A stretch of 64,000 nt of DNA from Chrysophaeum taylorii (Eukaryota > Sar > Pelagophyceae > Pelagomonadales > Pelagomonadaceae): contig JAQMWT010000521.1 in the NCBI GenBank assembly GCA_029834535.1, positions 124,001-188,000 on the forward strand, given 5' to 3'. The notes below the pieces were generated by a model. It ran no database searches and had not been told where the DNA came from. It saw nothing but the letters and a program-made list of their open reading frames with translations. The position numbers were made by a program, and so were the translations under genes. Below, one piece after another: positions 1,683-58,625 of the stretch (position 1 is the stretch's first letter; each line of letters starts with the position of its first letter).

Positions 1683-1689
1683 AACAATC

Positions 1690-2228
1690 TTGCCACTAAG
1701 TGAAGGGTAAGCGAGTCTTCATATTCCTTCCGCCCCTCCTCTATACAGCCGCATGGGGGTAAGGAGGGCCTGCGGGGGCAAAAGCAGAGAGGCTGTGCGA
1801 GAGAGGGAGGGTGAGCGAGGGGCACTCTCTCTTTCTCTCTCTCTCTCTCGGCATCAGAGTGCGCGGAGCGGCTGCGGCGCTTACTGCGCTGAGTAAGCAG
1901 CGCTTCAAATTCCGGTTAGTAACGGAGCCGCCATGTCCCGCCTCGCCGGCCTGGCATATCCTCGCAGCTCCCTCGCTTCCGCGGAGGCGGCGCATCGAGT
2001 CTCATTTACCCTCATCACACTACCTACGACTACCAGTAGTAGTATCGGCACGCCACATCGAATAATGGGATGCACCCCCACAACCGTCCGTCGAGAGAGA
2101 AAGAGGGACCCGCTTTGATTTTATTTACTCTGCTTGGGGTCCGTGCGCAAAAGGCCATGCGCACGAGGCCCGGCCGCCTGCCGGGGTGAAGTGGCGCGTT
2201 GATCGAATTCACCAAACAATATATGAAC
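1690..2228. other. intergenic interval with a (CT)n tract
   Basis: This stretch lies between the 5' end of the ASST-like gene and the 3' end of the antenna gene, both on the minus strand. It holds a CT-rich tract near 1830-1850. I see no supported gene or RNA in it. Confidence 0.5.
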
Positions 2229-2840
2229 TTAGATGCCGCCCGGCCAGAGGGAGACACCGAGCTCCTCGTGGACCATGAGCGCGAGGATGCCCATCATCGC
2301 AGCGCGGCCGTTGTTGAGCTCGATCGCACGTTTGCTCAGCTTCTCCTCGGCCGAGAACGAGTCCCACCCAAAGTCCAGCGCGCCGTTGCGGAAGTCGCCA
2401 GGGAACTCGCCGGGAGCGGCGCCGTTGGCCGAGTCCTTCATCACAAAGAGCTCGAGGAAGCCGACGAAGGCGACGATCTGGGCGATGCCCGCCGGTTGGA
2501 TCGCGGAGAAGGCACCGAAGCCCGTCGGGACGTCCGAGAACTTGGTGCCCGAGTAGTCGATGGTACCCGGAAGGAAGACCCCTGCCTTGGTCACGATCTG
2601 GCCGAGGACGGCAAGCATCGAGATGCGGCCGTGCTTGATCTCGACATAACGGAGGCGCTCGAACTTCTCCTGGTCGGCATCCGCCAAAAGGCCGAGAGGG
2701 TCAAAGAAGCCAAGCGGGGGCTGGACGCCGAGCTCGGTCTCGAAGGCCTTGACGACAGTCTTGGGGGCTGCGTGGGAGGCCACGGGCGCGAAGGCAACAG
2801 CCGACGAGAGGCAGAGAGCGACGACGACCTTGGAGAACAT
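2229..2840 (-). CDS. fucoxanthin-chlorophyll a/c binding (LHC/FCP) antenna protein
   Basis: This is a 203-residue single-exon protein of normal FCP length. The leader starts MFSKVVVALCLSSAVAFAP; the AFAP motif is the usual signal-peptide/transit-peptide junction of plastid proteins in algae with secondary plastids, so the product should reach the thylakoid membrane. Helix 1 carries the chlorophyll-ligand signature RYVEIKHGRISMLAVLGQ (about residues 65-82). Helix 3 carries the matching KRAIELNNGRAAMMGI (about residues 171-186). A middle hydrophobic helix (IAQIVAFVGFLELFVM) lies between them. FCP proteins bind chlorophylls a/c and fucoxanthin and pass excitation energy to the photosystems. It is intact and is the best marker of the organism in the window. 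The LTR of a gypsy element starts only about 155 bp upstream of its ATG. Confidence 0.95.
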   Translation of the reverse strand: MFSKVVVALCLSSAVAFAPVASHAAPKTVVKAFETELGVQPPLGFFDPLGLLADADQEKFERLRYVEIKHGRISMLAVLGQIVTKAGVFLPGTIDYSGTKFSDVPTGFGAFSAIQPAGIAQIVAFVGFLELFVMKDSANGAAPGEFPGDFRNGALDFGWDSFSAEEKLSKRAIELNNGRAAMMGILALMVHEELGVSLWPGGI

Positions 2841-2995
2841 CTGTTGTGTTTACTGTTAGATCGTCGTCTGATTATAAAAGATCTTGAAGATGTTCCTCAA
2901 CCGAATCTTTAATTCCCCTTGGGAGGTACCACCATACGAGGGGGGCTTCCTTATCCGAAATTAATTAATTAATGTGCTGGCGGCGGTTAAGGATA

Positions 2996-3321
2996 TGGCG
3001 GCACAGAAAAACCTTCCCGACCCCCGGGTGACAGACAAAGGGCGTACTCACCGACTCGTCCTAGACCTCACTGAACGAGGAAAACACGGATTCGGGGTCG
3101 TGTATGCTCGCCACACACCTTGCGCACGCTCACCAAGCCTCTTAACAAGATGGAGAGATGGAATATGATAGCAAGGAAACTACAAGAATACAGCAAGAAT
3201 GCTTCTCACAAAAGAGAGGTATGATTATGTCACTAAGAAGATCGGGAAAGGTGTCCCGTTGAACGGATATCAAGCCTCGAGAGAGGGGGGGGTAAGCCTT
3301 AGCGGTCAGGAGTTGCCGCCA
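2996..3321 (-). repeat. 3' LTR of the gypsy element
   Basis: It is 326 bp with the same ends and order as the LTR at 11503-11822. A short purine stretch (AGGGGAG, minus strand) just inside the element could serve as a weak polypurine tract. Confidence 0.9.
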
Positions 3322-3353
3322 CAGGACTCCCCTGGTGAGAACACGAGCTGCCC

Positions 3354-5201
3354 TCAGCGAGTCCGGCGAGAAGCACGAGCCTTGGCTGAATGAGCATCTC
3401 GAGAACGAATCTTCTTGTAGGCACGTTCAACGACAGGCTCAGGAACGCGTCCACCACGTAAAGTGAACTTAGGAATCAACACATCGTTCTCATGCGGGGC
3501 GAAGTCGGTGACACAAGGAGTGGTACTGTTGTTGACCTTGGTCTTGTCGGTGAAACTGCGACCGTCCACGTCCTTGTATTCCGGCTTAAGCTTGCGAGTA
3601 GAGAGATGTGAAGTAGGCTTGTAATAAGAAACCTTGTCATGGGGACCGAGATCAGCATAGAAATGCAGAGCGACTCGATCATTCACAAATCATAGGGTTC
3701 ATAAACTTCAGCGACATAAATCTTCTTTCGCCAATCGGACCGTTTATTATCCGGAATCCGGAAGATAACGAACTTACCATGCTTGTAATCATCCCGAAAG
3801 GTCTCCTTGGGCTTGGGCACAGCTCGATCGACCACTGGAGAAACCATCACAGGGGTAATCTGACTAACATGAACACAACGGCGTTCGGGAGGAGAATCAA
3901 GAGTCTCAATCCAGTAAGTGACCGGGGACAAGCGTTCCAAAATAACGAATGGACCGCGCCATTCCGGTCGAAGCTTGTTCTGAAGAAAAGGGATGTAGAG
4001 CAGAACATGTGAACCTTCTTCATACTCCACATCAACATGGTCCGCATTATAGGCGAGACGTTGTTTACGAAGAGCCTTCTCACGAGCTTCGTTCACCGTA
4101 GCGGTATAGAACTTCAGCCTCTCGCGAGTCTCTGCCACAACATCGGAGCGAGTTTTCGGCAGGCGGCGGACATCAAGATCCATGATCGTGTAATCGGTTG
4201 GCAATAAAGGCTGCCGGTTAAGACGAAGCATGAAAGGTGAGATCTGAGTCCCCGGAGTAAATCTACGATTGTAACAGAAAGCAAAGTACTCCGCGAATTC
4301 GGGCCATTCCGTGATCTTGCGGTTTTGAAGGCACGCACGGAGGAAAGCCTTGATAAAGCGGTTGACCCTTTCCGCAGGATTAGCCTGCTCTCTTTGGTTC
4401 AGGCGTACGAGCTTTCTTGCACACTATGCAACCAGCAATGTAAGCACCCACCTCATTAGACATATGAGGCCACCAAAAACGTTCAAGTATCGACTGCACT
4501 GTACTTTGACGACCCATATGACCACCATTGAGAGGTGTGTCATGGTACAATCGGATGATGCGCGTCCGTAAAGTTCGGGGTGCGACTATCATCGGGTGCA
4601 AGTCGGGTGCGGCACGGTAGAGAACTCCTTTCACCACTTGATAGCGATAATTGGCTCCGTACCGACGAAGAGAATGGCCCTGAGCCATGCGATAACGAAT
4701 GTCCTCGCAAGTAGCATCAGTGATCTGCTCTTTGGCTATCTCTTCCAAAGTCAAATTATCCGGAATCTTGTCGATGTACTCTTGGTAATCATCGGCATCA
4801 CGGAAAATACTAGGCTGGGTCTGAAGTCGTTGCTTCTGACGTTGTTTCGTAGCATGAGACGTGACCAATTGCATCGGATCATCGAGGTCTTCTTCCTCTT
4901 CCTCCACAGGCAACTCAGTCGTAACAAACGACAGAATGACATGGCACCCAGGTAAAGGTACTCCTTCATCATCAACAGAACGAGGGAGTTCTTGGCACAC
5001 TAGATACGCGTGGTTCAAGGGTTCACCAAACTCGTCCGTCTCGATGACATGATCTATAGGATTGCGAGAGAGACAGTCAGGGATGCTCATTCCCGGCGAC
5101 TTCCCTGGCTTGTAACCCAATTCAGGATCAAAATTGGCGAGCCGCATCGCCCATCGAGCCAACTGCCCAGACGAGTGCTTCGCCTTTCGTAAAAACGTCA
5201 A
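3354..5201 (-). pseudogene. gypsy RNase H end and integrase lacking most of its catalytic core
   Basis: The open stretch 5201-4380 finishes RNase H (QLARWAMRLANFDPELGYKP, DCLSRNP) and reaches an H2C2 zinc finger (HDTPLNGGHMGRQST then IAGCIVCKKART). Near 4380 the sequence jumps to the end of the integrase core in another frame (NPAERVNRFIKAFLR). It then continues to EWPEFAEYFAFCYNRRF and a GPF-like C-terminal domain (KLRPEWRGPFVILERLSPV) in 4231-3683. The segment that should carry the first two catalytic Asp residues, roughly 100 residues, is absent. A last open stretch (3686-3354) completes the C-terminus. An internal deletion plus frameshifts means no active integrase. Confidence 0.85.
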
Positions 5202-6788
5202 GTTGCGATGATCTGTTTCAAGGATCGTCTTGTGACCTTCAATATAAGAGCGGAAATGCTCAAGAAAAGAATAACTGCCAGCAGCTCTAGCCGGCGAGGC
5301 TCATAGTTCCGCATCTCTTTCGGCACAGCTCGGCTCCAATACTCAATTACTCGTTCCTCTCGTGTCACCTTGCCGGTTTCGTCCTTGATTTCCACGAGCT
5401 GAAAAGATACGCACCCAGACCATCCTTGGAAGCATCCGAGCGGATCTGAAAAGGAAGATCGTAGTCAGGATGATAAACTCCGCGAGAATCCACGAAAGCT
5501 TCGATGATTGTACCCCATGCCCTTTGGCACTCAGGCGTCCACTCAAACTTAACGCCTTCAAGACACAATCGCCTAAGCGGCTCCACAATCTTCGAATAAT
5601 TCTTCACATATCGGCGGCAATAGTTGCTCATACCAATGAAAGATCGAATCTGGGTCTTCGGGGACGTATTGGGCAACGTACCGGGAATCGGCATCTGCTG
5701 CAACGCTTCTAACGTCTTGGGATTCGGCTTCAAGCCTTCCGGAGTCGAAATATGTCCCAAAACTCGATTTCATCCTTGAGGAGGTGGAACTTCGAAGTTC
5801 GTCCACTATATCCTCGCTGTGCTAAATGGCACAACACTTCAATCAAAACTTGTAAATGTCGATGGAGTTCATCCGATCCCATCATAATATCGTCGACAAA
5901 CGCGACCAAGTCCTTATACATCCATGTGGACAAATCGCTAGCCATCTGCTTACAAAAGAGAGCTCCTGCTGTTTTTACTCCTAGAGGCAAGCGCAAGAAA
6001 CTATGGGCTCCAAGTGGACTAACCATCGTAACAGCGTCCTGAGCAGCGGCGTCCAAACGTAAGTTATGATAACCCCATCGAATATCAATGCACGTCCGCC
6101 AACGGCGCATGGCAAGAAAAGCCAAAGCATCATCTTGACGAATATTCGGCCAACTGTCATTGACCAGCTGATCATTGAGCTGACGCAAGTCAACGGCAGC
6201 ACGAAAAGCATTCGACGTCCCGGCCTCGGCTCCCTTCTTAGGCAGCATCAGTACAGGGAATCCCCACGGAGAGTTCGCCGGTCGGATGACTCCATCGCGA
6301 CACCACTCAGTGATCTGCTTTCTGAGACACTCGAGCTTTGCTGGCGTCAACCTATAAGGCGTCATCTTGATCGGTCGTGGGTTTGCGTCTTTAAAGCGTA
6401 GAGAAACCGGTGGCGAGTCCACGGGTCTCATAATCGGATCAAAGAAAGCCCACGCGTATTGCACGCAATGGCTCAACATCATCTTCGCATCATCATCCAG
6501 ATGCGGGTTGTCGGGAATTCCTAGATCTCGAACAACCTTCTCAACTTCTTCCTTCGTCGGAATTACGACTTTCATCGCATCATTGTCCTTGACGTGCTCG
6601 GGAATCTGCGGTAACGGTACACCGTCCGAATCGCGCGGGGTATCCTTCCATGGCACATCGAACTTTTCTTCGTATTTGAACCTCACCTCAGGGTGGCTCT
6701 TATTGATCTTTTCACCTTTGACGCGCACATTCGGCTCGCTCCTTACTTTCGGCTCCTGTTCAGGTTCAGGATCCGGCGGAACGTCCAC
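5198..6788 (-). pseudogene. gypsy reverse transcriptase and RNase H
   Basis: The 352-codon stretch from 6788 holds the gypsy RT fingers and palm: SPWGFPVLMLPKKG, AFRAAVDLRQLNDQ, a motif A region reading TCIDIRWGYHNLRL and the catalytic loop AFVDDIMMG. A frameshift near 5750 moves the frame to 5760-5365 (GHISTPEGLKPNPKTLEAL, SFIGMSNYCRRYVKNYSKI, then FQIRSDASKDGLGAYLF, the start of RNase H). Another shift leads to VIEYWSRAVPKEMRNYEPRR in 5395-5198. These motifs identify a Ty3/gypsy polymerase with at least two frameshifts. It is closely similar to the decayed copy at 32.1-34.1 kb. Confidence 0.88.
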
Positions 6789-7951
6789 TTTTGATTGTCG
6801 GGGGGGGCAGCAGAAAAAACATGAGCCGTCCCCGGCGCATCAGTTGGAAGCGGAAGCTTAGGAACTTCTAGTAATCGTCGTTTCTCGTCCATCAAATCGG
6901 ACATTCCCGTCAACTTCTCCTCCATCGGCGCCGCTGTGGTCTGCTCTGCTGCGACCAAAACTGTATCGGCTAGAACATCGGCTAAAACGGCTAAAACGGT
7001 CTCGGAAACGGTCTCGGGGGGGGGCGTAGGAAAAGAAGACGTCGTCCCCGACGTCAACTCAAAAGGTCTAACGTCATCATCGTGAACTGCCCTGCAAGAC
7101 ATGCACATTGACGAATGGAGGGACACTGGAACCTGCGGCATGGGTTCGTCGGTCTCCGAATCTGAGTCTTCCCAGTAGTGCGGAGAATCCCGAGTAGCAT
7201 CTGACATTGCTTCCACATACGATGTAGAAGGCCACCGAACGATCCGAGCGTTGGTGGTATGTTGCTCCTGTTGCAAACGATGGCTGCTCGTCACAGCGAC
7301 ATCGGCAACATCATCGGAGACTCGGGTAGGGCGCGCCGTCGGGTAAAAGACAACCCCCCGACATTGGCGGCGCGTCGCATAAAGATTGGAACGCGAAAGT
7401 TGCGCTCGAATGTCCCGAACTATCCTGATATCTGCCTCCGTCATACTCGTCATCGTAATGTCGATGACGTCGGCGCCGGCGCGAATTGCGACTAGAGCTC
7501 CGGTGACGGCAAGGACTCGGGCTGCTTTGAGCAGTATGGGCTTTTCGATCAGGGCTCTGGCTTCGATGTCGGCGTGACGATCGTCTAGAAGGTGATCGTC
7601 CGTCTCGCTGTCGTGTAGAAAACGACGTAGTATCCTTGAGGCTTCTGACCTCGCTCACCATGGTCGCCATTGTGGTTCCAAGATCGGTGAGGGCCGTTTG
7701 AATTTCATTAGAAGGCTCCGATCCGTGCGTGGCGTTCGCATGAGATGCATCATCACGCTTCGCCCAATCGGACCGCGATATGGGCTGCTTCTTCTGCTTA
7801 CGAATTCGCTTCCACATCGCACAGTAGTAACGATCCGGATCGCGGTTGCAAACTACGCGATTTCCGTGTTCATCTTCATCATGGGTGGTCCAGAAGAACC
7901 CACAGTGCGGGCACGTTCTCTTGCCCCACAAAAAAGGATCTCGTAAAATCA
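6743..7951 (-). pseudogene. gypsy gag C-terminus and gag-pol linker
   Basis: Downstream of the nested LINE, the gag frame continues with a Cys/His cluster (KRTCPHCGFFWTTHDEDEH, then a further Cys about 12 residues on) that may act as a nucleocapsid-type zinc finger. An Arg/Ser-rich basic region follows. The frame then changes, and a 236-codon stretch (7453-6743) leads towards the polymerase. I looked for the DTG or DSG of an aspartic protease and did not find a convincing one, so the protease may be diverged or lost. Confidence 0.6.
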
Positions 7952-7964
7952 GCGGATCCGTATT

Positions 7965-9586
7965 AACTAACTAACTAACTAACTTCGGACCTCTCCCGGG
8001 CATGGGAGCCAGGCTGGGCCGGCAGTAGCCGGTCCAGGATCACAGAGCAAAAATCACACAGTTGGGGTAGAGGCGAGGGATGAAAGTGCGTGGATGGCGG
8101 ACCGCCACTGCGCGCGGTCTTGTGCGAGGTCGTGCCACGAGTTGAAGGGGATGTCGCATTTCCGGAGTGCCTTGGCGAGCGACCTCCCGTACGTCATCTG
8201 CGGAGCCCCCGATGGGCGCTTGGAGCGGACCCAAGACGAGAGCATCTTGCGAGGGAGTCGGGAGAAGGGCATGCGGGCGACGTGACCGGCCCAGCGGAGC
8301 TGGCGGCGCGTGACGTAGACGTCGATGGACTCGAGGCCGAGGCGCCGCAGCAGGATCTCCGTTGAGATGTGGTGGAACCAGGTGTGTTTCCGGGTCACAC
8401 GACACATGACGCGGGCGCACTGCGCGTGGAAACACCGCAACCGGCGGAACAGGACCTCGGTGAGGCACCACGATTCCGCACCGTGAAGGAGGATGGCCAG
8501 GACGAGCGAGACATAGACGAGGCGCTTGGCGCGAGCAGAGACGGACTTCGAGGCGAAGATGCAGTCCCGCAAGGCACCGAAGGCCTGAGACGCCTTCTTG
8601 ATCCGCGCGTCGACGTCTGAGTCGTCGCGGCAGTCGCGCGAGAGGACCGAGCCGAGGTACTTAAACTGGTCGACGACCGGTATGAAGCGGCCGCGCCCGA
8701 GCTCGATGTCCGAGAGGTTCGTGTCGTCGAACGACTTTGGGTCGCCGTACAGTTGTGCCGGGCGAGCGACGAACAGCATCTCCGTTTTGGACGCCGCTTT
8801 CGTGTGTCGGTTGCCGCAATGCACCTCCATGCCCCAGGCGTCGCAGTGTTCGATGAGGCGCGGTGTCTCGCTGGTGGCGATGTGGCGGTCCCAGAAGAGA
8901 AAGGCAACGTCGTCGGCGTACGCCGATTCATCGAAGGGAAACTCGTCGCCGCGAGTGGACCAACCCCGGTTCGTCATCTGAAAGTCTTTCCGCGTACGGT
9001 AGACACACGGGGCGCGGCCATGGCGTCGTCGAAACGACGTCGTCAGTGCCGCCATGAACAGCACGAACAGGACGGGGCCCAGGACGTCGCCCTGCTTGAC
9101 GCCGATGATGCTCGCACGCTCCCGCTGTTGGAGCGTGTAGTCCTCGAGTTCTGGGAGTCCGAAGTCCAGCCGGCCGAGTGGGACGTAGGCCTCCTCGGGA
9201 TTCTACCCAAAAAGGGGGACCTCTCCCTGCCGGGCAACTACCGCGGGATCATGATGCTCGAGGTCGCGCAGAAGATCGTTTCGAACATCGTCCGTGCGCG
9301 ACTCAACGTCATCTGCGAGGCCCTCGATCACGAGTCCCAATGTGGCTTCCGACCCGAGCGCGGTACGTCCGACGCCACCTTCTCGCTCAAGCTAGCGCTG
9401 AAGAAGCGGCGTGAGCACGGTCAGGACTCGTGGGTACTGTTCATCGATTTCGTTAAGGCGTTCGACCGCGTCCGGCGAGAGCTTCTCTGGGAGGTGCTCC
9501 TGAAGTTCGGCGCCCCGCCGAAGCTCGTCGAAGTCATCAAGGGCCTCCACCGAATCCAGGTCCACTTCTCGGTCAGCGGTGTCGTC
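7965..9586 (-). mobile_element. LINE insertion with internal inversion (twin priming), nested in gypsy gag
   Basis: A 13-bp target duplication, GCGGATCCGTATT, lies at 7952-7964 and 9587-9599. From 9109 down to 7965 the LINE reads on the minus strand: the end of motif B (VKQGDVLGPVLF), the catalytic YADDVAFLFWD, the long C-terminal region (LRWAGHVARMPFSRLPRKML, HDLAQDRAQWRSAI), the 3' UTR and a (GTTA)n tail. From about 9110 to 9586 the upstream RT part (GILPKKGDLSLPGNYRGI, GFRPERGTSDATF, LFIDFVKAFDRV) reads on the plus strand. Comparison with the copy at 38.2 kb shows the two halves are inverted relative to each other and that about 13 bp between them (39383-39395 there) are missing. The two copies are nearly identical, so the insertion is young. 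Confidence 0.93.
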
Positions 9587-11069
9587 GCGGATCCGTATTC
9601 CCAGACGGTTTATCCGCATCTTGCTTGGCTTGTTGATCGGAGGCCATAGCTCGACCTCCCCGCCCTCGCGGCGGTTTATTCGATTTCGGATTAGGTGGGC
9701 CTTGGTCCTTCTCCTCCTCCATCAACTTTCGTAAGTCGTTCTCGAGCCGCGTAATAAGCGCTACCATCGACTTAAAAGTCACGTAACTATCAGGATGTCC
9801 GCTCCTCATAGTCCGCACACGGGTCCTCAACTCCTTGGACGTCAATCCACTGATAAGCTGGTCAAGGATATCGACATCATCCATCGTGCGGCTGGACACG
9901 GAACAAAACTCCAAGGCTTCAGATTGGAATCTGGTACAATACGTTTGGACGTGTCGCTCCCCAGACTCCTTCGGAACTGAAGCCTGGGTGACCTTCCGCA
10001 GCTTGTCAAGCAGCTCCTGCTGCGTGCGCGGAGGTCGGCAAGTCGATCTAAAATAATCCAAAATCTTGTCGCAATACGTCTTGTTAAGACGGCGGATACA
10101 ACGAACCGAGACTCCATGCTCTTCATCGTCAGTATCTAATTTCAAGTAAAACGACGGACCGTGTGGTAGCTCATCGCAGAGCTCCTCGTATTTCTGCAAG
10201 TGGTCCTCAAAAATTGGTGCAACGGTGTCCCGTAGATGCACAGGTAGTAAGTAACGTAATTTCTCGACCGAGTAATGGTCATCTGCTTAAGTATGCATCA
10301 TCGCCGCCGAATCCAAATTAAATTGCCGTTGATCTCGGCCGTCGATGACGAGTTTGAAGTTGTCAGGCTTCAAACTGGAAGTGGGTCGACGGGATCGGCT
10401 CAAGTTGCCCTTTTCGAAGGCGTTGGCAACCGTCTGCGATATTCCCCGCGATAATTCCCGTAAAATTTTCGTACCTTCATTCTCAACGTCCGCCCTACCC
10501 TCATTCTCCGTATCGACTCGGGGCGGAGGTTCATTCCCCGTTTCAGTGTTCCTTTCCGGTTCAGGCGGCCTCACGGGCGTTTCCGGTTCGGGTCGACTCA
10601 CGGGTCGTTCGCGGCTACTCTCCCGACGCGTACGTTCGGCTAACAATTCATCTCGTTCACGACGAAATCGTTCAACCTCTTCACGTAGGGTCTTCGAGGT
10701 CTCAATCTCTTGCTGTAATGCATCATTGAGCATATCAACTTCTCGTCGAGCCGCTTCCTCTTTCGCTTCAGCCCTTTCACGAGCAAAAAGCTCAGCTAAT
10801 CGTTCATTTTCGCGACGTCTCCGCTCGAGGTCTTCACGAAGTCGACTTCGGGCTGCAGATCCGCGCTCAATAGTAACACGCTCGCCACGGTCCGGAGTCG
10901 TTGGACTCAACGGCGAAAAAATGGCAGTATCCGGAGGCACATCAGGGGGCACGTCAGCAACGTCGACTGCCTCGTCCTCTCTTTATTCACCTTCCTCGCG
11001 GCCTATCTCAGGGGCGGCGGGAAGAACTGGAGGAGATTCTTCCTCACGCACGTCTGCGTTTATCTCCAT
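9587..11069 (-). pseudogene. gag: gypsy gag, N-terminal part
   Basis: An ATG at 11069 opens the gag frame, which runs with one in-frame TAA (about 10980) into a 221-codon open stretch and then a second open stretch from 10241. The first part is a strong charged coiled coil (about 10900-10600, rich in Arg/Glu with REDLERRRRENERLAELF). The second is a helical retrotransposon-type capsid region with RHVQTYCTRFQSEALEF and LISGLTSKELRTRVRTM, ending in a Lys/Arg-rich tail. The reading frame runs straight into 7950 once the LINE and one copy of its target duplication are removed. Gag was therefore open across this point when the LINE landed. Confidence 0.8.
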
Positions 11070-11822: not shown

Positions 11823-12129
11823 CAAAGGAAAACAACAAAGCATCTCCTCGTGAGTACGAGGGGCTCGAATCACGCCTAGAGCATGACGAGCAAGAAGAGA
11901 ACACGAGGAGCCTCCGAGATGAGATACAGCTTCAAGGAGCATAGGGGAGGTAGGCAGGTGTAACTGCGACACCCGCTCCCCTTTGGCCGGACCGACGGTA
12001 GAGAAAAGTGAAAATTACTACGCTTGCGCGTGAGGAACATCGCTCGCAATTTACGCCCTCGCAACCCGAACCCGGAGGTGTGGGTGATATAACAGAATTC
12101 CTTCGTATAGCCTTTCCTGATCGCCGACC
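11823..12129. other. repeat-derived sequence downstream of the gypsy LTR
   Basis: No gene is seen. A stretch near 11885-11950 (around GAGCAAGAAGAGAACACGAG) is similar to 13455-13520, so both probably derive from one dispersed repeat. Confidence 0.5.
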
Positions 12130-12478
12130 GCAAGGGGCTGCGATGGAGGACGGTGCCTCATGAATCCTGAGCCTTGCGAGGGCATCTGCCCTCCCGGCGT
12201 AGGTAGGCACCTGTTCGCCTCCCGGGCGGGCCGGTTGGCAGCCGGAACGTTCGCAGTGGGGCGGGGTATGGCCGGGGGGCGCAGACGGAAGGTTTTCGAC
12301 GAGAGTTGGTTGTCAGTCACATCGCGGTCTCCTCGTCGCATGGCGAAAAGCCTGATGATCACTCTCCGCCGACCCACCTTTCGGCGCCCCTCGTCTACAG
12401 ACCCGTGATTCCGGACTGGCTCCTGTCGGTCCGGCCTGGCTCCCATGCTCGGGAGAGGTCTCAAGTTAGTTAGTTAGT
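12130..12478 (+). mobile_element. SINE-like retroposon, copy S1, with LINE-type 3' tail
   Basis: About 290 bp from 12188 to 12478 match 46932-46646 (opposite strand) almost throughout, and homology to 58.6-58.4 kb reaches further 5' to about 12140. The 3' end holds two hairpins (around 12411-12463) and a (GTTA)n tail. That end is the same as the 3' end of the LINEs at 7965 and 38241, while the body is not LINE sequence. I found no clear pol III A and B boxes, so calling it a SINE rests on size, the tail and dispersal. It could instead be a non-coding derivative of another LINE family. Confidence 0.7.
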
Positions 12479-15400
12479 TCCTTCATTGAGGGACTACTGG
12501 CTGATCTGGAGAAGCCGCCACTGTTGTTGCCGCCATACACGATCCATCCCGCTACAGGCCCGCCCTGGCGCTCACGTACGCCATTTTGAGGTTGGCCTGA
12601 ACTTTATCATGATCAAGAAGGTGCTGAACAAGGACTTGGAGCTGATTCCGAATTCTCCCACAATCAGCATTAAACTGAGCTTGTCTCGCAGCGTGCTGAG
12701 CTTTGAGATGGTGCATCGTCTCTTGCTGATGCCGGACCTCCCTAGCTGCCATGATCTCTTTTATGGCGTCTTCGTCGATGTCTTCTTCGAGAAGAAGAAC
12801 CACGTCGCGGTCGCGAGTCGTCATTTTCGTTGGTGGTCGTTTGCGTGTTTTTGCTTGCTTTCACACTGCCGCACCCGGTAGCACGTGATGAAACTTGACT
12901 ACCTGTTTCAGGAACGTCAGAGAGGCCCGCCCCTCTCTGTAAACCTGTAAATTTCAATTAACGTCAGAGCATGACTCTGGGAATCCAAGTCTTTGTCCGA
13001 GACGTCGAGCAGAGTCCGATGTTTTGTAGAGAAGTGGGCAGTGGCCGTGCTGCCCTTTAACGTCCTGTCTCTACCGACACAAAGAGCAGCACGGTGTGGA
13101 ACGAAGTGATTTCTGGTTTGGGTGTGTGTGTATTAGTAACCCTATATATAATTTTTTCTGCTTCTAGGCGGCCACATCGTGACATCAAAATCCCCCGAAC
13201 CGCGAGTGGTCCCGCTACAGGGCCCGCCGTGGCGCACACGCACGCCATCTTGAGTTTGGCCTAAAATAGTTCAAAGGGGATTAATTCAGAGCAAGAATCA
13301 GTAGATTCCATGAAGTCTAAACAACAATATATGCTGTGATTGGCAGGCTAATAGGATCCTCAATTAGATGAGATTCCCAGGGAAGGCGGATAGAGATTCC
13401 AAGTGGGAATCTCCAAGTTCAAGGTAAGAGGGGGGGGTGGAATGACGTTACCGCGAGCAAGAAGAGAACACGAGAAGCCTCTTCCGCGTCAAGGAGCACA
13501 AGGGAGAGGTAGTGAGCCTATAGAGTTTGGATGGAAACCCTAGCCGACTCGACGAGGAGCGAGCGAGGTCCGGATGATATTTCCCCTCGAGTGGTCGCCC
13601 CCTCACACTATTGTTGTGGTCGTTGATTTCCCGAGGCAGATAGAAAACCAGAAACGAGGGTAGCTACGTCACCTGGTAGAGCGTAGTGGCTGTCTCAAAA
13701 AAAAAAACGTCTAATCTCTGAACAGGCTTTGACGAGACACTCTATTCTCGAAGCGTAGTGCGCAAAACTGAAGCGAGCGCCCAGGCGTCAGCGCGATGGA
13801 CTGGAGCGAGTGGCGTATAGAAACCTCATTGTGCACTCATATAGCTCAAACTTGTCCGAATAGTAGGTGTCGCGCTGGGCTCGCCATAATTTGGTTTGTC
13901 TCGAACTCGCGCGGACGTCAAGTTGCACGAACTTCAAACAAATTCGCACTCCTGCTCGCGGAATCCACAGTTCCCTGAAGAAGACCCGGTTGCTGGATCT
14001 AGCGAGCTAAGTAAGGACCCAATGCCATGTAATCCCCTAAGTGCGCGGATCCTACACGGTAAAACCACGAAAAAAAAGTTGAGACAAGGGTTTTATTTAA
14101 CAAGTCGACTGCTGTTTTTGTGAATTGGTGGAGACGTGAGGGATACCTGGAAGGCGGAGGTGTCCCGTTAAAAGACTTGCAAGGGCTGGTTTTAGATCGA
14201 TCGAGGATTCGAAGGATCGTCTCGCAAAGCACGGCCGTACAATCTGAATAGACCGACTCGGGTGTCCGGCCGAAAATGGCAGGAGTGCCTCTCTTTAAGG
14301 GGCGTGTCCTGCCTCTTAGAAGACAGCGCCTAACAACTTTATGACTCGCGGATTTCCAGAAATGTAAAAAAAATGCTGACTAAGATAATTCCGGGATAAT
14401 CCCGAACTATCCATTTTTTCCGAGGAAATCTCCGGGAGCTCGAGAGGAGACTTTCGGACAGCTGGCGGGCCGAGCCCAAAGAGGCCAAAACGCTCCTCAA
14501 TAGAGGCAGACCCATGGGTATCCGCTGAGGTGTCGGCGACCTCCACCGGAGGTATTGCAGCGCGCCGAGCGACGACCAGGACGTCGATCATCCGGAGGGG
14601 GGGGGGCGTGCAAACAAAAGAACGCGGTGTGCGTGTAAGGGGGTTTCAAATCCACTGTGCCCTAGGATCCCCAGGCCATAGGGTACTGACGTCGAGCGCG
14701 AGAAGGGTGATAGCTTGTTTTTATGAAAAACGGAGTGCGGTGGTGTGTGCACGCAGGGCGTTCAGTACGAGTAGTGTTTTTTAAAGGTCGACTGCTAAGA
14801 GAGGGGCGTGGGGTATGTGAACGTCAGCAGTTTTTTTTTTTGTGGCTGTCACCTTTGACCGCAACGCCTGCAGTGTTTCGGTCGCAGTCGAGAGTCTCGT
14901 CGACGTCGGCACCATATAGTGTAATGCTGAGGACAAGCGGCCGACGCGAAGAGGCAGCTGAGGCAGAGGAGAGTGTCTTCTTCGGATAGCGGCAGCATCC
15001 AGCCTTAGTCGTCGGAGTTCGACTGTCGTCCACATTGTTTGCGAGTTTGAGCCTCTGCCGACGAGGCGCGTTTTGTTTTCCAATTGAAAGTCGTAGTTGT
15101 AGACCCGAGCCCGCGGCTTGAACTTGACCAGAACCACCACTCACTTGGTTCTCGAAAGTCTTGGTCGAGGTGTCCAAGCAGGACGTAGAGTGGGCTCCGT
15201 TCTTCGTCATCGCGGAGAAAGGAAGTCGTCGTCTTGTCGACGGACGAGAAGCCGCTTGTTGATCAAGGGGGGGACTTCCCGGCCGGTCCTCTCGCGATTG
15301 TCGCCCGCCCATGGTACCTACACATAGGTGCACGTAGGCGCTCTCGTGGTGGGCGAGTACTTTGCGTGGCGCGTGTACTGAGGTAATGTAAATTTGGAAA

Positions 15401-20003: not shown

Positions 20004-20174
20004 AACTAACTAACTAACTAACTAACTTCAGACCTCTCCCGAGCATGGGAGCCAGGCCGGACCGGCAGGAGCCGGTACGGAATCACAGAGGAAACAAAAT
20101 CACGCAGGTGGAGGGACGAGGAGTGTTGATGGCGGACCGCCACTGCGGACCGCGGTCTTGTGCGAGGTCGTGCA
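20004..20174 (-). mobile_element. LINE 3'-end fragment
   Basis: A (GTTA)n tail at 20004-20026 is followed by the two tail hairpins, the 3' UTR and the last codons of the LINE protein (HDLAQDRGPQWRSAI). The copy is truncated at its 5' end after about 170 bp. It differs at several sites from the LINEs at 8 kb and 38 kb but keeps the hairpin pairing. Confidence 0.9.
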
Positions 20175-22498
20175 AAAGCGTCGCAGGCCGCGGACGCGTT
20201 GGTCCACGAACAATCGACCTGTCCGTCGCGTTCTGCCCGAGCGAGCGAACCCGCGGGACGACTACTAACCTGACCGAACGCCGCAAGATTCTCAAACACC
20301 AAGCTGCTGCTGCTGCTGCTGATGGTCACAAGGAAGGCATCAAAGGGGCAGCCGTTGAAGCGGCCGCGCGAATATGCGTGCCTCAGCATTTCACCAGAAC
20401 ACGGAGATTTCTCGCGTTTGGTCGACGGCAAACACGACCGAGGATGGACGACGAAAATCGGCAACAAAGGGCGAAACAATCCGGACGAAAAAGCCTGTCT
20501 ATTTCTGCGCTCGAATATTCTCATCGAAGTACGGAACATCTCGAAACTATGTCGTGCGCGGCGAGTGTTCGAGACACCGAAAAATGTCTTATGGTAGACG
20601 CGAAAAACGAGCAAAGGCCGAGGTGTATGCACGCAAGCCAGAGAGAAGCAAGAAGCCATGACACGACCGGGGATCGTGAGAATCGGTCGGCAATAGATAG
20701 CCTTCCGCGCGGAGTGGCCCACTCTGCAAAAAATCGGTTACTCGAAAAAAAATACTCGGGTCACCCACTCCCGCGGGCTAGCTTACAAACGCGCTCATCT
20801 TCAAGTCCTCATAGACAACAAAAACGACGTCAACTCTGTGACGACGACAAAACGACCGCTTCCGGCGGACGCTGGTTGCTGGCCTAGGCGCATTCTTTCG
20901 CCACTTTTATGCCTGAAAACGTCGAACGACGACGAGGACCAACACCGCTTTCTTCTTCTTTGTTCGGTGCCTGGTGCAACTTTTTTTTCCAAGGGCGTCG
21001 TCTCGACGCAATCACGAACGATAAGTATGACATCCAAACGGTCGGTAACGAACGACTGCGCACGAAGAAAATCGTCCGTCCGCACGACTATCGAGGCGGG
21101 GGCGGCGTGAATGACTTCCAGCACCAAACTCGCCCCGACACCGCGAACAGGTAGAGTGCTTCCCGTACGCAAAGTTTCAGTCCGTGCTTGCTGAAGCGCG
21201 ACTTCCACCGTGCGGGTTCGTTTCGGGCGACTAGGTCCAACGCCGACGATAGCTCGCCTCGCGAAGCAACGCGCGCGTTCGGACTTCGCCTCGCGTCATC
21301 GACGGAGTCTCCTCAAAGGCAGTAGGCTTGCTTGATCATCGCCCGAGAATTGATCATCGCCCGAGAATACTGACGTGCAAGCGAGTTCGGCAGGAGCGAT
21401 ACGGCGGCGCCCGTTAATTAAGGACGATATTTAAAATAAACGGGCTCGTAATGGAATGTATAGAAGAGCCATTATGCTCGACGTCGAGGAGGAGGACGAG
21501 GCGCGTCCCCTTTTTTGTCCGGAATGGAAGCCAGAGTAGTTTTCTTAAACAACGTGCCGTCTTTCGGAGTCCCAACATGTCTCGGACGGAGTGGTCTCGG
21601 GGAACGGACGTGTTCTGAGAAGTTTGTTTGCGAGAAAGTTTTTTAAAAGTTAAGAGTAACGCCTGCCGCGAAAGGGTGGGTCATTGCACCTAAAAACGGC
21701 ACGATGGTGTCGATGTTGGAAGTCTGGTTTTCCTTCGAGGACTCAGTCTATTGGGGTGGCGGTAGCCAAGGCGAGGTATTGTCGTCTAGTTCGTCGGTTT
21801 GAAAATGACGTTAGTTTATCACTCTTACGTCAACTCTCGACGCAGCGAATCAGACGTATTAAGCGCGCTCGGATGTACGCAATGAACGACTGACTGACCT
21901 GGGGGGGACGCATTCTTTTTTTTCGCAGACGACAAAAAGTTCTCTGGTCCCTTCCACCTAAAGAAGACGCGATTGCCCGACGCGTTGCTGGCAAAGTCGA
22001 GTCCGTCGAGTTTGAGCCAGTAGTTTTTTTCGACCGCGGTAACAAATCCGGCCCGACGACGCTTTCTTCTTTGATGCTAGCGCCCGACGGGCCGAGCTGT
22101 CGCTGCACAAAGCCCAGAAGCGTGCCGAGCAGCAAGACCTGGACGCGATGCAAGATCATCTGTGACGATATTCCGAGACGCAGGTCGACTTTGGTCGACC
22201 TTTTGTCCGGGTAGCTTTGCGCGTTGCACCGCCCGTGGTGGGTTCCTTTCGACGTTTGTCTGCGACGTGTTTTAAGGCCGCGCTTGTCAGGGGACTTGGG
22301 TTTTTAAAGGAGGTGTAGGGGGCGTCTCCCCCCCCCTCGACAAAACAAGCGCACAGAAAAAAGGAAGATTCCGGACAAAAGGAATCTTGTCTTCGAGGCG
22401 TTGTTGGGAGAAAGAAAGTTCTTCTGATGAGTCACAAGGTGGTGGTGGTGAGTCACGTCGAACGCAATTCCAGATCAACTCGAGGATCGGTTGCCAAG
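20175..22498. other. interval without a supported gene
   Basis: There are short ORFs on both strands, including an Ala repeat from a (GCT)n run near 20303-20320 and a 135-codon minus-strand ORF at 21208-20801. None has a family signature I recognise. A plus-strand stretch ending at a TGA at 22162-22164 (LSLHKAQKRAEQQDLDAMQ) reads like the helical C-terminus of a lost gene. Confidence 0.35.
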
Positions 22499-26148: not shown

Positions 26149-26190
26149 GAGGGTTTAGGATGAGAAACGAACGCCATGAGGGTTAGTTAG

Positions 26191-26325
26191 TGGCGGTCCG
26201 CCATCCATGCACTTTCCAAAGCTTCTACCCCAACTGTGTGAATTTTTGCTCTGTGATCCTGGACCGGCTACTACCGGCCCAGCCTGGCTCCCATGCCCGG
26301 GAGAGGTCCGAAGTTAGTTAGTTAG
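26191..26325 (+). mobile_element. LINE 3'-end fragment, plus strand
   Basis: About 135 bp match the last part of the LINE (3' UTR from GGCGGTCCGCCATC, both tail hairpins, (GTTA)n). It is bounded on the left by GTTAGTTAG and on the right by the tail, so the target duplication cannot be separated from the tail. Confidence 0.9.
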
Positions 26326-26329
26326 CTAT

Positions 26330-38240: not shown

Positions 38241-40765
38241 TAACTAACTAACTAACTTCGGACCTCTCCCGGGCATGGGAGCCAGGCTGGGCCGGCAGTA
38301 GCCGGTCCAGGATCACAGAGCAAAAATCACACAGTTGGGGTAGAGGCGAGGGATGAAAGTGCGTGGATGGCGGACCGCCACTGCGCGCGGTCTTGTGCGA
38401 GGTCGTGCCACGAGTTGAAGGGGATGTCGCATTTCCGGAGTGCCTTGGCGAGCGACCTCCCGTACGTCATCTGCGGAGCCCCCGGTGGGCGCTTGGAGCG
38501 GACCCAAGACGAGAGCATCTTGCGAGGGAGTCGGGAGAAGGGCATGCGGGCGACGTGACCGGCCCAGCGGAGCTGGCGGCGCGTGACGTAGACGTCGATG
38601 GACTCGAGGCCGAGGCGCCGCAGCAGGATCTCCGTTGAGATGTGGTGGAACCAGGTGTGTTTCCGGGTCACACGACACATGACGCGGGCGCACTGCGCGT
38701 GGAAACACCGCAGCCGGCGGAACAGGACCTCGGTGAGGCACCACGATTCCGCACCGTGAAGGAGGATGGCCAGGACGAGCGAGACATAGACGAGGCGCTT
38801 GGCGCGAGCAGAGACGGACTTCGAGGCGAAGATGCAGTCCCGCAAGGCACCGAAGGCCTGAGACGCCTTCTTGATCCGCGCGTCGACGTCTGAGTCGTCG
38901 CGGCAGTCGCGCGAGAGGACCGAGCCGAGGTACTTAAACTGGTCGACGACCGGTATGAAGCGGCCGCGCCCGAGCTCGATGTCCGAGAGGTTCGTGTCGT
39001 CGAACGACTTTGGGTCGCCGTACAGTTGTGCCGGGCGAGCGACGAACAGAATCTCCGTTTTGGACGCCGCTTTCGTGTGTCGGTTGCCGCAATGCACCTC
39101 CATGCCCCAGGCGTCGCAGTGTTCGATGAGGCGCGGTGTCTCGCTGGCGGCGATGTGGCGGTCCCAGAAGAGAAAGGCAACGTCGTCGGCGTACGCCGAT
39201 TCATCGAAGGGAAACTCGTCGCCGCGAGTGGACCAACCCCGGTTCGTCATCTGAAAGTCCTTCCGCGTACGGTAGACACACGGGGCGCGGCCATGGCGTC
39301 GTCGAAACGACGTCGTCAGTGCCGCCATGAACAGCACGAACAGGACGGGGCCCAGGACGTCGCCCTGCTTGACGCCGATGATCGAGTCAACCGAGGCGAC
39401 GACACCGCTGACCGAGAAGTGGACCTGGATTCGGTGGAGGCCCTTGATGACTTCGACGAGCTTCGGCGGGGCGCCGAACTTCAGGAGCACCTCCCAGAGA
39501 AGCTCTCGCGGGACGCGGTCGAACGCCTTAACGAAATCGATGAACAGTACCCACGAGTCCTGACCGTGCTCACGCCGCTTCTTCAGCGCTAGCTTGAGCG
39601 AGAAGGTGGCGTCGGACGTACCGCGCTCGGGTCGGAAGCCACATTGGGACTCGTGATCGAGGGCCTCGCAGATGACGTTGAGTCGCGCACGGACGATGTT
39701 CGAAACGATCTTCTGCGCGACCTCGAGCATCATGATCCCGCGGTAGTTGCCCGGCAGGGAAAGGTCCCCCTTTTTGGGGAGAATCCCGAGGAGGCCTACG
39801 TCCCACTCGGCCGGCTGGACTTCGGACTCCCAGAACTCGAGGACTACACGCTCCAACAGCGGGAGCGTGCGAGCGTCGGTGGCGAGCGCCTTCCAGACCT
39901 CCGCGCGCAGGCCCGATTCGCCGGGCGCGGTGCAGTTCAGCTGACCAACGGCCCGTTTTATCTCCCCCTGCATCGGTGGTTCCCTAGTTCCGGACGGATC
40001 GGCAACTGGTCAACGTCGTTGATCACGGTGGGGTCGTAGCGAGCTTGTCGACTGTAGAGCTGCTTGAAGTGCGCCTTGAACACGTCGGCGTTCTCCTGTG
40101 GCGACGAGCACCTGCTACCGTCGGCCTTCGTCATCAGCACCTGCCTAGCCAATGTGGTCTTCGTGAGACCGCGTCGGAGCCGTCCGACCGTATTCCAGTA
40201 TTTCGAGGTGCCGCCGAGCGACTCGCTTCCCGCATTGAGTCCGGCACACAGACGAGTAATCCATCGCCCTTTCGCCCGTGCTACGGCCTTCGCGAGCCGC
40301 GACTTGATCGCCCGAAGGTCGTCGAGGATCGTGGACGCCGAGCGAAGACGTGCGTCGCTCGATCAGAGGCTGGAGCTCTTCCGCCGCGTCCTCAAACCAT
40401 CCGGGTCGGAGGCGTCGGGTCTTCGGCAGTAAGGCGTCAGAGGCCGAGGCCGCCGCCCGCGCAAGGCGGGAGTACGGCGAGGACGGCGAGCCCTGGTCGG
40501 CGTCGGGTACCTCGTCCGTGGCGTCGGTCGGTGCGTCGTCGGTCGCGTTGTCATGTGACCCACGGCCCAAGCCGAAGATGTCGAGCACTTTCGAGCACCA
40601 CCGGCGCCGGAATCCGAAGCGCGTGCTTTCTGAGCGCAGGGGAGCGTAGTCGAGGCGCGCCAGAGAGGGCCGTGTGCCAGGAGGCCAAGAGGATTGGAGG
40701 ACAACAACCCTGACGTCATCGTCAAGAAGCTGTCGCTCGACCCCGACTTTGCGGAGCACGTTGTT
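38241..40765 (-). mobile_element. LINE (non-LTR retrotransposon), 5'-truncated, long copy
   Basis: The 3' end at 38241 carries (GTTA)n, two hairpins and the 3' UTR. Coding sequence runs to about 40760. An imperfect duplication (GTTGCAAG at 38228-38235 and 40766-40773) may mark the insertion. The endonuclease domain is absent, so the copy is 5'-truncated. It is nearly identical to the LINE at 7965-9586 but without the inversion, and serves as the reference for that copy. Confidence 0.9.
38327..39973 (-). CDS. LINE reverse transcriptase, open reading frame
   Basis: A 548-codon open frame covers most of the RT and the C-terminal domain. RT motifs in order: LLGILPKKGDLSLPGNYRGI (fingers), GFRPERGTSDATF (motif 2a region), LFIDFVKAFDRVPRELLW (motif A), GVKQGDVLGPVLFVLFMAAL (motif B), YADDVAFLFWD (motif C, catalytic Asp pair) and DQFKYLGSVLSRD (motif E). 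The C-terminal part (LRWAGHVARMPFSRLPRKML, SWHDLAQDRAQWRSAI) is common to many non-LTR elements. Upstream, the protein continues in other frames through TLARQVLMTKADGSRC and AKGRWITRLCAGLNAGSE up to about 40760, with at least two frameshifts. The enzyme would prime cDNA at a nicked target and recognise the 3' hairpin tail. As placed it lacks endonuclease and cannot act alone. Confidence 0.9.
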   Translation of the reverse strand: MQGEIKRAVGQLNCTAPGESGLRAEVWKALATDARTLPLLERVVLEFWESEVQPAEWDVGLLGILPKKGDLSLPGNYRGIMMLEVAQKIVSNIVRARLNVICEALDHESQCGFRPERGTSDATFSLKLALKKRREHGQDSWVLFIDFVKAFDRVPRELLWEVLLKFGAPPKLVEVIKGLHRIQVHFSVSGVVASVDSIIGVKQGDVLGPVLFVLFMAALTTSFRRRHGRAPCVYRTRKDFQMTNRGWSTRGDEFPFDESAYADDVAFLFWDRHIAASETPRLIEHCDAWGMEVHCGNRHTKAASKTEILFVARPAQLYGDPKSFDDTNLSDIELGRGRFIPVVDQFKYLGSVLSRDCRDDSDVDARIKKASQAFGALRDCIFASKSVSARAKRLVYVSLVLAILLHGAESWCLTEVLFRRLRCFHAQCARVMCRVTRKHTWFHHISTEILLRRLGLESIDVYVTRRQLRWAGHVARMPFSRLPRKMLSSWVRSKRPPGAPQMTYGRSLAKALRKCDIPFNSWHDLAQDRAQWRSAIHALSSLASTPTV

Positions 40766-41096: not shown

Positions 41097-41436
<340 letters not shown>

Positions 41437-46645: not shown

Positions 46646-46932
46646 TAACTAACTAACTCCAGACCTCTCCCGAGCATGGGAGCCAGGCCGGACCGACAGG
46701 AGCCAGTCCGGAATCACGGGCCTGTAGACGAGGAGCGCCGAAAGGTCGGTCGGCGGAGAGTGACCATCAAGCTTGTCGCAATGCGACGAGGAGACCGCGA
46801 TGTGACTGACAACCAACTCGCCGATAACCTTCCGTCTTCGCCCCCCGGCCATACCCCGTCCCACTGCGAACGTTCCGGCTGCCAACCGGCCCGCCCGGGA
46901 GGCGAATAGGTGCCAACCTACGCCGGGAGGGC
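46646..46932 (-). mobile_element. SINE-like retroposon, copy S2, with perfect TSD
   Basis: A 287-bp element lies between two copies of GACAGACAAAC (46635-46645 and 46933-46943). It starts GCCCTCCCGGCG on the minus strand and ends with the double hairpin and (GTTA)n. The unoccupied site is legible in the paralogous cassette at about 45385-45412 (CAGACAAACATCTGTCGATT). Compared with S1 it lacks about 50 bp of the 5' head, so it is 5'-truncated. Confidence 0.9.
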
Positions 46933-47185
46933 GACAGACAAACATCTGTCGATTAGTAGTTAGGACTACAGGCGGGCGCCTCCACACTGAAAGTTACTGT
47001 ATTTAATGTTGCAAGGGCAGTACCATGGACCGATCTCGACCAACGAGCGATGTGAGACGCTCAGGAGTACTCCCGACCATTGTCCGAAAGTTTAGCGTGA
47101 TCGTGGCATGGTGTGGGTGTAATGTCTAGCAGTACCCGACACTAAAAATTACCAGGCATGAGGAAGGGGAGGATGGCGAGCCGCA

Positions 47186-48181: not shown

Positions 48182-48465
48182 CCGGTCCGAGTTGGAGTGT
48201 GCGTCGCGGCTGTTTCATCAAACAAAACACGCTCCTTCAGTCTATCGTCGAGCTGTCGTCTCCAGGTGATGATGAGCTCAATCCAGTCTGGGTGGTCAGT
48301 CATGCACTTCTTGGCCCCTACTCCTTCCTTCTCGCAATACGCTAAGGCCTCCGCTAAGAAAAAAAAACTTTCTGCTGTTGCTGGCGTTTCTTTTCCGCAG
48401 CCGTTTTCTTGTTGAAAACTCGCGTCTAAGGAGCCGTTTTTTTCTCGCTGCCGCTTCTCCCGGGC

Positions 48466-48701
<236 letters not shown>

Positions 48702-48859
48702 ATAGGGGCCCGCCCAGGTTCCTTCCGTGCCTTGGGGCGCTTGCTTAGACCCACCATCGGCTTGGCTCTGGTGGCCTTCCTAGCTGCGGAAGCTGAGTTT
48801 CGAAAGAGCGGGTAATTTTTGTAGTGTCGGGTGATTTTTAGTGTCGACCCGCCTGTATA

Positions 48860-58139: not shown

Positions 58140-58625
58140 CTAACTAATAAACTAAAGGCCGGCCCAATGCATGGGGCGTCGGCTATTTACTCCCAGCACC
58201 GTGGCGCGTGCAATCAGAGTCGCCGGGCGGTCAGAGGGCACGTAGATGGTCTGTCGCCAGTTGCCACGGTCTTGAGCGAGGGAGTACCATATTTCACACA
58301 TATCTTCGTGCTTATGTGAAATATTCGGAGTGCCTTGATGAGACACGGCCGTACGTGAACTATCTTCGCCTCGTTTTTGAGACCGCGGACATTCTGACTC
58401 ACTGTCAACTTCGTCGTCAACTTCCTTCCTCGCTCCCCGGCCATACGTCGTCCCGCTGCGAACGTTCCGGAAGCCAACCGGCCCATTCGGGAGGCGAACA
58501 GGTGCCAACCTAAGCCGGGAGGACCGGTGCCCTCGCAAGGGAGGCGAACAGGTGCCAACCTACGCCGGGAGGACAGATTCCTTCACAAGGAGCGGGTTCA
58601 GAAGGCACCGTCCCCCATCGCGAAA
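58140..58625 (-). mobile_element. SINE-like head joined to a diverged LINE 3' end
   Basis: The right part (about 58625-58400) matches the SINE-like family, with a partial internal duplication of the segment around GGTTGGCACCTGTTCGCCTC. The left part (about 58390-58140) is a diverged LINE end: WYSLAQDRGNWRQTI in place of WHDLAQDRAQWRSAI, a possible hairpin around GGCCGGCC, and an eroded AACTAATAAACTAA tail. The two parts are collinear on one strand. Confidence 0.7.

Follow-up and report, generated by a model that had tools for sequence, protein, structure and literature searches.

Several retroelement copies in the 64,000-nucleotide stretch of DNA analysed here (the window) end in two hairpins followed by (GTTA)n, which raises the question of how short SINE-like elements and a LINE came to possess the same 3′ end. 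The original prediction had proposed a stringent LINE–SINE partnership, with unrelated bodies and a reverse transcriptase (RT) recognising the RNA hairpin. All six ends named there were found to carry the double-hairpin sequence and (GTTA)n, whereas a further relative at about 58.14–58.62 kb was missing from the list. The features are collected in Table 1. The window also carries a chlorophyll a/b-binding-type gene, by which the host would most likely be an alga, and long tetranucleotide tracts (ATTT/GTTA/CTTT, plus one that translates into TDRQ repeats in a single frame) were noted at 41100–41400 and about 48350–48750.

Table 1. Retroelement features of the window, with positions counted from its first nucleotide
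Feature	Positions	Strand	Basis
LINE A copy, 5′ part (9107–9588) inverted	7984..9588	−	nt 2321–3446 on −, nt 1826–2307 on +
SINE D copy, nearly full length, (GTTA)n tail	12116..12479	+	95.8% to D nt 4–359 at 12116–12475
Head of that SINE D copy, homologous to the 5′ end of LINE E (about nt 1–215; firm nt 1–177)	12116..12328	+	85% to LINE E at 12140–12291; ends by counting
SINE D core	12329..12402	+	D copy vs LINE E/LINE A no better than shuffles; ends by counting
Exchanged 3′ tail (exchange probable): GTGA, P1 (12411–12434), P2 (12435–12458)	12403..12458	+	boundary from E-tailed relatives
Bipartite element B/C copy, 5′ truncated	20005..20252	−	87.6% over 233 nt to L052 at 20027–20252; 89.9% to L051
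LINE A 3′-end fragment with tail	26189..26326	+	88% over 127 nt at 26189–26312
LINE A copy, 5′ truncated	38257..40686	−	98.8–99.1% to LINE A nt 975–1310 and 1349–3446
Another SINE D copy, 5′ truncated and beginning at D nt 73	46647..46933	−	97.6%
Bipartite LINE E derivative: partly duplicated LINE E head fused to the 3′ end of LINE E, E-type double hairpin	58140..58623	−	sequence match

The shared 3′ end and the parent LINEs

SINE D, ~360 bp in length, was aligned through its nt 289–359 with the 3′ end of LINE A at 86–89% over 71 nt in four of the five full-length LINE copies, and over 58 nt at 90% in the fifth. SINE and LINE have in common a specific 3′ end that extends beyond simple repeats, as in a stringent LINE–SINE pair. 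The whole assembly (70.8 Mb, 697 contigs) was scanned for tail patterns, using each pattern read backwards as control. The second-hairpin core GGCTCCCATGCNCGGGAGAGGTC was located at 992 + 963 = 1955 exact places and the reversed pattern at 0 + 0, which excludes chance. At up to one mismatch, the first-hairpin blocks of D, B and LINE A were located in 711 + 661 = 1372, 180 + 193 = 373 and 103 + 131 = 234 tails, respectively (control 0 in each case), genome-wide counts that may be inflated by haplotigs. The assembly probably contains such haplotigs, because a near-identical copy of the window locus is present on contig C25 (99.97% over 3301 bp). Thirty GGCTCCCATGCNCGGGAGAGGTC loci taken in contig order consisted of 17 D, 8 B, 3 C and 2 A tails. 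Six B-type tails in tandem, spaced by 112–114 bp, were observed at nearly the same coordinates on two contigs (C10:39062–39660 and C297:39059–39657).

The window copy of LINE A contains an open frame at 38330–40009 (560 residues) with the Pfam domain RVT_1. A protein search with LINE A in its own genome yielded 82 matches from 78 scored candidates of 1135; 27 of the 30 matches examined were free of stops, with open frames of up to 1134 aa. RVT_1 was detected in the LINE A protein by Pfam, which did not find an endonuclease in the protein itself; a Pfam endonuclease was present in the homologue P0068, one of five homologues scanned. The N-terminal 400-residue stretch was modelled with a mean pLDDT of 78.8, and the best PDB matches of this model include LINE-1 ORF2p, the LINE-1 endonuclease domain and the TRAS1 endonuclease. 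By RVT_1 and the structure search of the model, LINE A has the single ORF with an AP-type endonuclease and an RT that is characteristic of RTE-clade LINEs, and from the layout and the C-terminal motif it is a putative member of an RTE-like clade. Public proteins matching the LINE A RT numbered 393, and the 120 of them that were listed derive from ena, jgi and lgn sources; the ten best-scoring were 54–59% identical over 96–98% of the query, and the partial protein P0100 was 80% identical over 53%.

An inverted 5′ part, as in the LINE A copy at 7984–9588 with its inversion break near 9107–9109, is what twin priming would give. This copy has GATCCGTATT at both ends and sits inside an LTR retroelement: the frames at 3683–7970 and 9573–10982, two of which yielded RT, RNase H and integrase zinc-binding domains, resemble a single such element split by the LINE A insertion. 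Many full-length copies of LINE A and D have CCCTTACCCT-like bases directly in front of their 5′ end, which vary by copy.

A second parent, LINE E, is represented by a decayed element on contig C624, whose RT is ~60% identical to that of LINE A. Its 3′ end differs from that of LINE A in sequence and resembles it in layout, consisting of GTGA, two successive hairpins and a GTTA-like tail. The first hairpin is formed by CTACTCCCA/TGGGAGTAG with an inner GCGC stem, followed by CCT; the second has the loop CGTGC in one tail of this element and CATGC in its other tail, with GTTAG repeats thereafter. A 29-letter pattern of this tail was located at 49 + 53 places in the genome (up to three mismatches; control 0). 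In the C624 copy (L074, 4024–4225), two successive 3′ tails were observed, and the flanks behind them are almost identical (AACAGCAGG.AAATCTCGCTTC).

Make-up of the short elements and their tails

The C-type copy L052 was identical to LINE A at 208 of 219 positions over nt 4–223 and at 129 of 151 over nt 3295–3446, and the B copies, which were aligned with L052 over their own length, have the same make-up. Judged by these alignments, B and C are internal-deletion derivatives of LINE A, in which the first ~220 nt are fused to the last ~150. A LINE 5′ end joined directly to a LINE 3′ end, with the interior missing, was found in B, in C and in the 58-kb element, whose 3′ match to LINE E scored 160, whereas 300 shuffles of that 3′ part reached 34 at most. 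The element at 20.0 kb, previously taken for a LINE fragment, turned out to be a truncated bipartite copy of the B/C type, the stretch 20027–20252 spanning the deletion junction (Table 1).

By the same kind of comparison, SINE D is a chimera of a LINE-E-type head, a core of ~75 nt and a LINE-A/B-type tail. In another D copy, nt 1–177 were 84% identical to the LINE E 5′ end over 178 columns, start codon included; nt 20–153 were ~75% identical to the LINE A 5′ end in four of five copies, and a shorter stretch was aligned in the fifth. The statement that the bodies are unrelated has to be withdrawn on these grounds. For the core, scores against LINE E and LINE A lay within those of shuffles, so that its source was not found there and a derivation from either LINE was rejected. 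Among five E-tailed bodies (see below) compared with the two LINEs, only L131 was borderline: for two LINE E parts, its score was reached by 3 and 4 of 200 shuffles. D resembles a bipartite LINE derivative in that its head and tail are LINE sequence, though from two LINE families, and departs from one in the ~75-nt core, which matches neither. The original prediction had counted against itself the case of SINE-like bodies that prove to be internal parts of a longer autonomous LINE; this case is half borne out, the bodies being partly LINE sequence.

Rfam at the gathering threshold and a tRNA scan gave no match in the 64-kb window, and in lax Rfam scans of three sequences (one D copy, the head of LINE E and a LINE A head) all matches fell far short of the gathering scores. 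A head derived from tRNA, 5S, 7SL or snRNA, as in canonical SINEs, was rejected for D, since its head is LINE sequence without Rfam or tRNA match. An HDV-like ribozyme of the L1Tc/ingi type was likewise rejected, with no match up to E 5 in any of these three sequences.

E-type tails were also found on bodies related to D. Eleven E-tailed loci were aligned with the D body above all 30 shuffles each; L122, L123, L127, L130 and L131 contain nearly all of head and core, and the other six lack 5′ sequence to differing extents. Of the eleven, L130 comes closest; it is identical to the D body at 261 of 288 positions and diverges at GTGA, the start of the hairpins, into an E-type tail. A pattern for the junction of a D-like body with an E-type tail was located at only 13 places genome-wide (up to three mismatches), such copies being rare, and the 11 further loci taken from these places comprised nine with E-type tails as well as L140 and L141 with A/B-type tails; the stretch of L126 was too short and was not used. 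One SINE body hence occurs with the tails of two LINEs.

In an unrooted tree of 34 bodies, the bootstrap of which had not settled, the 16 D rows formed one group (support 90/93). A larger group of 25 rows (95/95) joined them to L140 and to eight of the E-tailed rows, leaving out the remaining eight E-tailed rows as well as the head of LINE E. An earlier tree of 26 rows had placed D with two E-tailed SINEs at 99/99. Bodies of 150 nt or less, L141 among them, were excluded from the trees, and the D copy L064 was included in the 26-row tree and absent from the 34-body tree. With L140 counted as A/B-tailed, the 34-body tree needs two tail changes; of 200 bootstrap trees, only 2% could do with one. 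Either the tail was swapped twice, or L140, with its 163 nt of body, is misplaced. The locus itself (G000 C77:138020–138490) has a SINE body outside the D group and an A/B-type tail, and possibly represents a second, independent tail swap. From these sequences, the SINE lineage appears to have exchanged its 3′ tail at least once, the number and direction of swaps resting on an incompletely resolved tree. The E tail is held to be the older one because the LINE E head lies among the E-tailed rows, whose branches are longer. D is by far the commoner form, with 1372 tails compared with 13 junctions of D body and E tail, although old copies escape such patterns.

It could be argued that the short elements are merely internally deleted LINEs, that is, defective RNAs that were mobilised, and that D descends from an unseen LINE with an E-type head and an A-type tail, no partner switch being required. 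B and C are exactly such derivatives of LINE A and the 58-kb element is one of LINE E, and both head and tail of D are LINE sequence. As the E-tailed SINEs share the body of D and not its tail, however, the tail differs within one SINE lineage; moreover, the D core matches neither LINE, and an E-type head combined with an A-type tail was not encountered among the LINE copies examined (a non-exhaustive set). We therefore regard this explanation as improbable, and consider it likely that D arose from E-tailed SINEs by exchange of the tail and was then amplified with the younger LINE A, by hairpin-started copying of bipartite elements in trans.

As to how the exchange came about, DNA copies could have recombined or undergone gene conversion, the alternative being template switching during reverse transcription. 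GTGA starts both tail types and would provide a short common stretch at the joint, and nothing in the present data separates the two routes; we give the DNA route a substantial chance, if somewhat less than an even one.

Covarying folds at both ends

The A-type and E-type tails, which otherwise differ, both keep GTGA, the layout of two hairpins and a CAUGC loop. When 35 tails of A, B, C and D were fitted to the fold, 94.3% of cells were paired, compared with 93.0% on shuffling (0 of 500 as high). One pair of the first hairpin (P1) is CG in 20 tails, UA in 14 and UG in one, with none broken; another P1 pair is unpaired in 12 of the 35, and two of the five pairs of the inner stem of the second hairpin (P2) are invariant. 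The wobble example given previously, ACCGGC/GCCGGT against ACTGGC/GTCGGT, is literally right. For the E-type fold, 37 of 46 tails were used, the nine without a recognisable P1 being left out; 88.4% of cells were paired, compared with 87.2% on shuffling (12 of 500 as high). Here, one P1 pair is AU in 15 tails, CG in nine, GU in two and broken in 11, and P2 is 97% paired and hardly varies. Paired cells and score lie above the shuffles, whereas the number of covarying pairs does not (3 against 2.9 in the E-type and 2 against 1.4 in the A/B/C/D tails).

Covariation was relied upon because folding energy was weak for six of eight tails (z −0.92 to −2.0, mostly unremarkable for single tails) and for all four heads, the stability of which showed no excess over shuffles (z 0.57, 0.40, −0.88 and −1.55). 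In the minimum free energy fold of the 12-kb SINE D copy, P2 was not formed. The covariation expected by the original prediction was borne out for the first stem, with one clear two-sided change per tail type, but the second stem is nearly invariant and thus uninformative. A conserved 3′ RNA stem-loop, as found in stringent LINE–SINE pairs, is represented by P1, from few events. At the level of sequence, P1 is supported by covariation in few events and P2 by the layout that A and E tails have in common and by the conserved loop.

That the RT recognises (GTTA)n alone, the hairpins merely hitch-hiking, would agree with the GTTA-like repeats at the end of the A/B/C/D tails and of most E tails examined, and with a nearly invariant second stem and few covariation events. 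It does not account for the two-sided P1 change in both A-type and E-type tails, nor for the layout and CAUGC loop, which persist though the A and E tails otherwise differ, and it was the hairpin block that the swap replaced. We accordingly think it rather unlikely, and recognition of the hairpins by the RT is retained as the probable mode.

At the 5′ end, 11 heads were compared using structures folded from single elements. With the structure folded from D alone, 93.9% of cells were paired, compared with 89.6% on shuffling (0 of 500 as high), and 27 two-sided cells were counted, compared with 11.5 (0 of 500), slid versions of the structure giving 0–3. The structure folded from LINE A alone also gave 27 two-sided cells (11.7 on shuffling) and the same five switched pairs, in columns 45/100, 58/93, 62/89, 71/82 and 119/143. 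At these five pairs, the A/B/C rows (5/5) differ from the D/E rows on both sides, with one broken row each in two of the pairs. The structure folded from LINE E alone was conserved to a lesser degree (83.1% paired), and three of the switched pairs are present in it. Counted by covarying pairs, the excess of the heads over shuffles is weak (40 and 68 of 500 as high), and the head covariation consists of five changes between two lineages, not more. The covarying fold of ~150 nt in the LINE 5′ UTR (L052, L070, L008 and L074; window 12116–12290) is kept by the short families examined.

A role of the folded head RNA itself is likely, because its pairs covary by two-sided change; the conserved head may act as a promoter, in translation or as a protein-binding RNA. 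More tentatively, copying might need both RNA ends, the covarying 5′ head being a protein-binding RNA module that was for this reason kept through the tail exchange. The 5′ RNA of R2 is reportedly such a module. Although we would not put the chance of this high, the genome would, if both ends are needed, amount to a natural experiment: the choice of LINE partner would lie with the 3′ hairpins, and the 5′ folds of different LINE families could stand in for one another.

Mobility and relation to known systems

For evidence of insertion, 64 copies of D, B/C and A were collected, and 17 with too little flank were left out. Flanks sharing an exact word of at least 8 nt were present in 33 of the 47 remaining copies, whereas 200 re-pairings gave 0.27 on average and never more than 2; this identifies target-site duplications. 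The elements are best described as short non-autonomous bipartite retroelements that were probably assembled from the ends of LINEs, the parent LINEs encoding a putative endonuclease and RT. Each would keep a folded LINE 5′ head and a 3′ tail composed of GTGA, two hairpins and GTTA-like repeats, and target-primed reverse transcription would copy it in trans, presumably with the folded 3′ tail as the place where the LINE protein starts. The D lineage would first have carried the tail of the older LINE E, which was then replaced at GTGA, the start of the hairpins, by a LINE A/B-type tail. Such an exchange of the hairpin block would have led to a change of helper, so that D may now ride on LINE A and would have been amplified together with this younger LINE, many frames of which are intact. 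The stringent partnership originally proposed remains the best reading and gains support from one body with two LINE tails, with the correction that the bodies are partly LINE themselves. To our knowledge, the RNA choice of a LINE protein is known experimentally for few elements only; UnaL2 has reportedly been assayed.

Bipartite, internally deleted derivatives are often generated from RTE-type LINEs, and a hagfish SINE (SINE2/SINE1) has been modelled with a 3′ part replaced by that of an RTE derivative, as described in PMC7245038. These SINEs and the bipartite RTE families resemble the present group in that 5′ and 3′ ends are kept, a 3′ part was replaced (in the present group probably so) and a young family has target-site duplications; they differ in that the hagfish SINEs have tRNA or 7SL heads in front (PMC7245038), whereas the D head, without Rfam or tRNA match, is a covarying LINE RNA fold. 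For Bov-A2, RTESINE1, MAR4 and RTE1-N1_LA, the promoter is given as '5′-end of RTE' or '5′-end of BovB' (PMC3747384, Table 1). As in the present elements, a LINE 5′ end is combined there with a LINE 3′ end and the entries name no small-RNA gene (PMC3747384), whereas D contains an extra core and ends from two LINE families, and its host is probably an alga. RIME and NARTc of trypanosomes are truncated, internally deleted ingi and L1Tc elements, and the pairs RIME/ingi and NARTc/L1Tc likewise comprise short deleted elements sharing a LINE 5′ domain (Pr77) and a 3′ end; Pr77 is described as an HDV-like ribozyme (PMC4035085), whereas no HDV-like match was obtained for the heads studied here.

In UnaL2/UnaSINE1 and the maize pair LINE1-1/ZmSINE2, a common 3′ end with compensatory changes in a hairpin and a short repeat tail is present (PMC3747384) as in our group, which is set apart by its double hairpin, by two types of tail within the same genome and by the probable tail exchange. 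CORE-SINEs carry L2, L3 or RTE tails (PMC3747384, Table 1), and SINE–LINE tail exchange is mentioned in PMC6887750. One SINE body with the tails of different LINEs is common to CORE-SINEs and the present group; unlike in the former, as they are tabulated, the body here also starts as LINE sequence, and old and new tails survive in one genome (PMC3747384). Among the matches listed by a search of the open-access literature, none dealt with this LINE–SINE group. As far as these sources (PMC7245038, PMC3747384) describe such elements, the kind is already in print, and the group is a new, unusually complete member of it, probably from an alga.

The picture of an 'unrelated' SINE body is corrected by these results. 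A single genome holds the probable old partner, the probable new partner, SINEs with the old tail, a SINE with the new tail and simple deletion derivatives. This set of elements would provide ready constructs for asking whether the 3′ double hairpin alone sets the partner, or whether the folded 5′ head is also needed.
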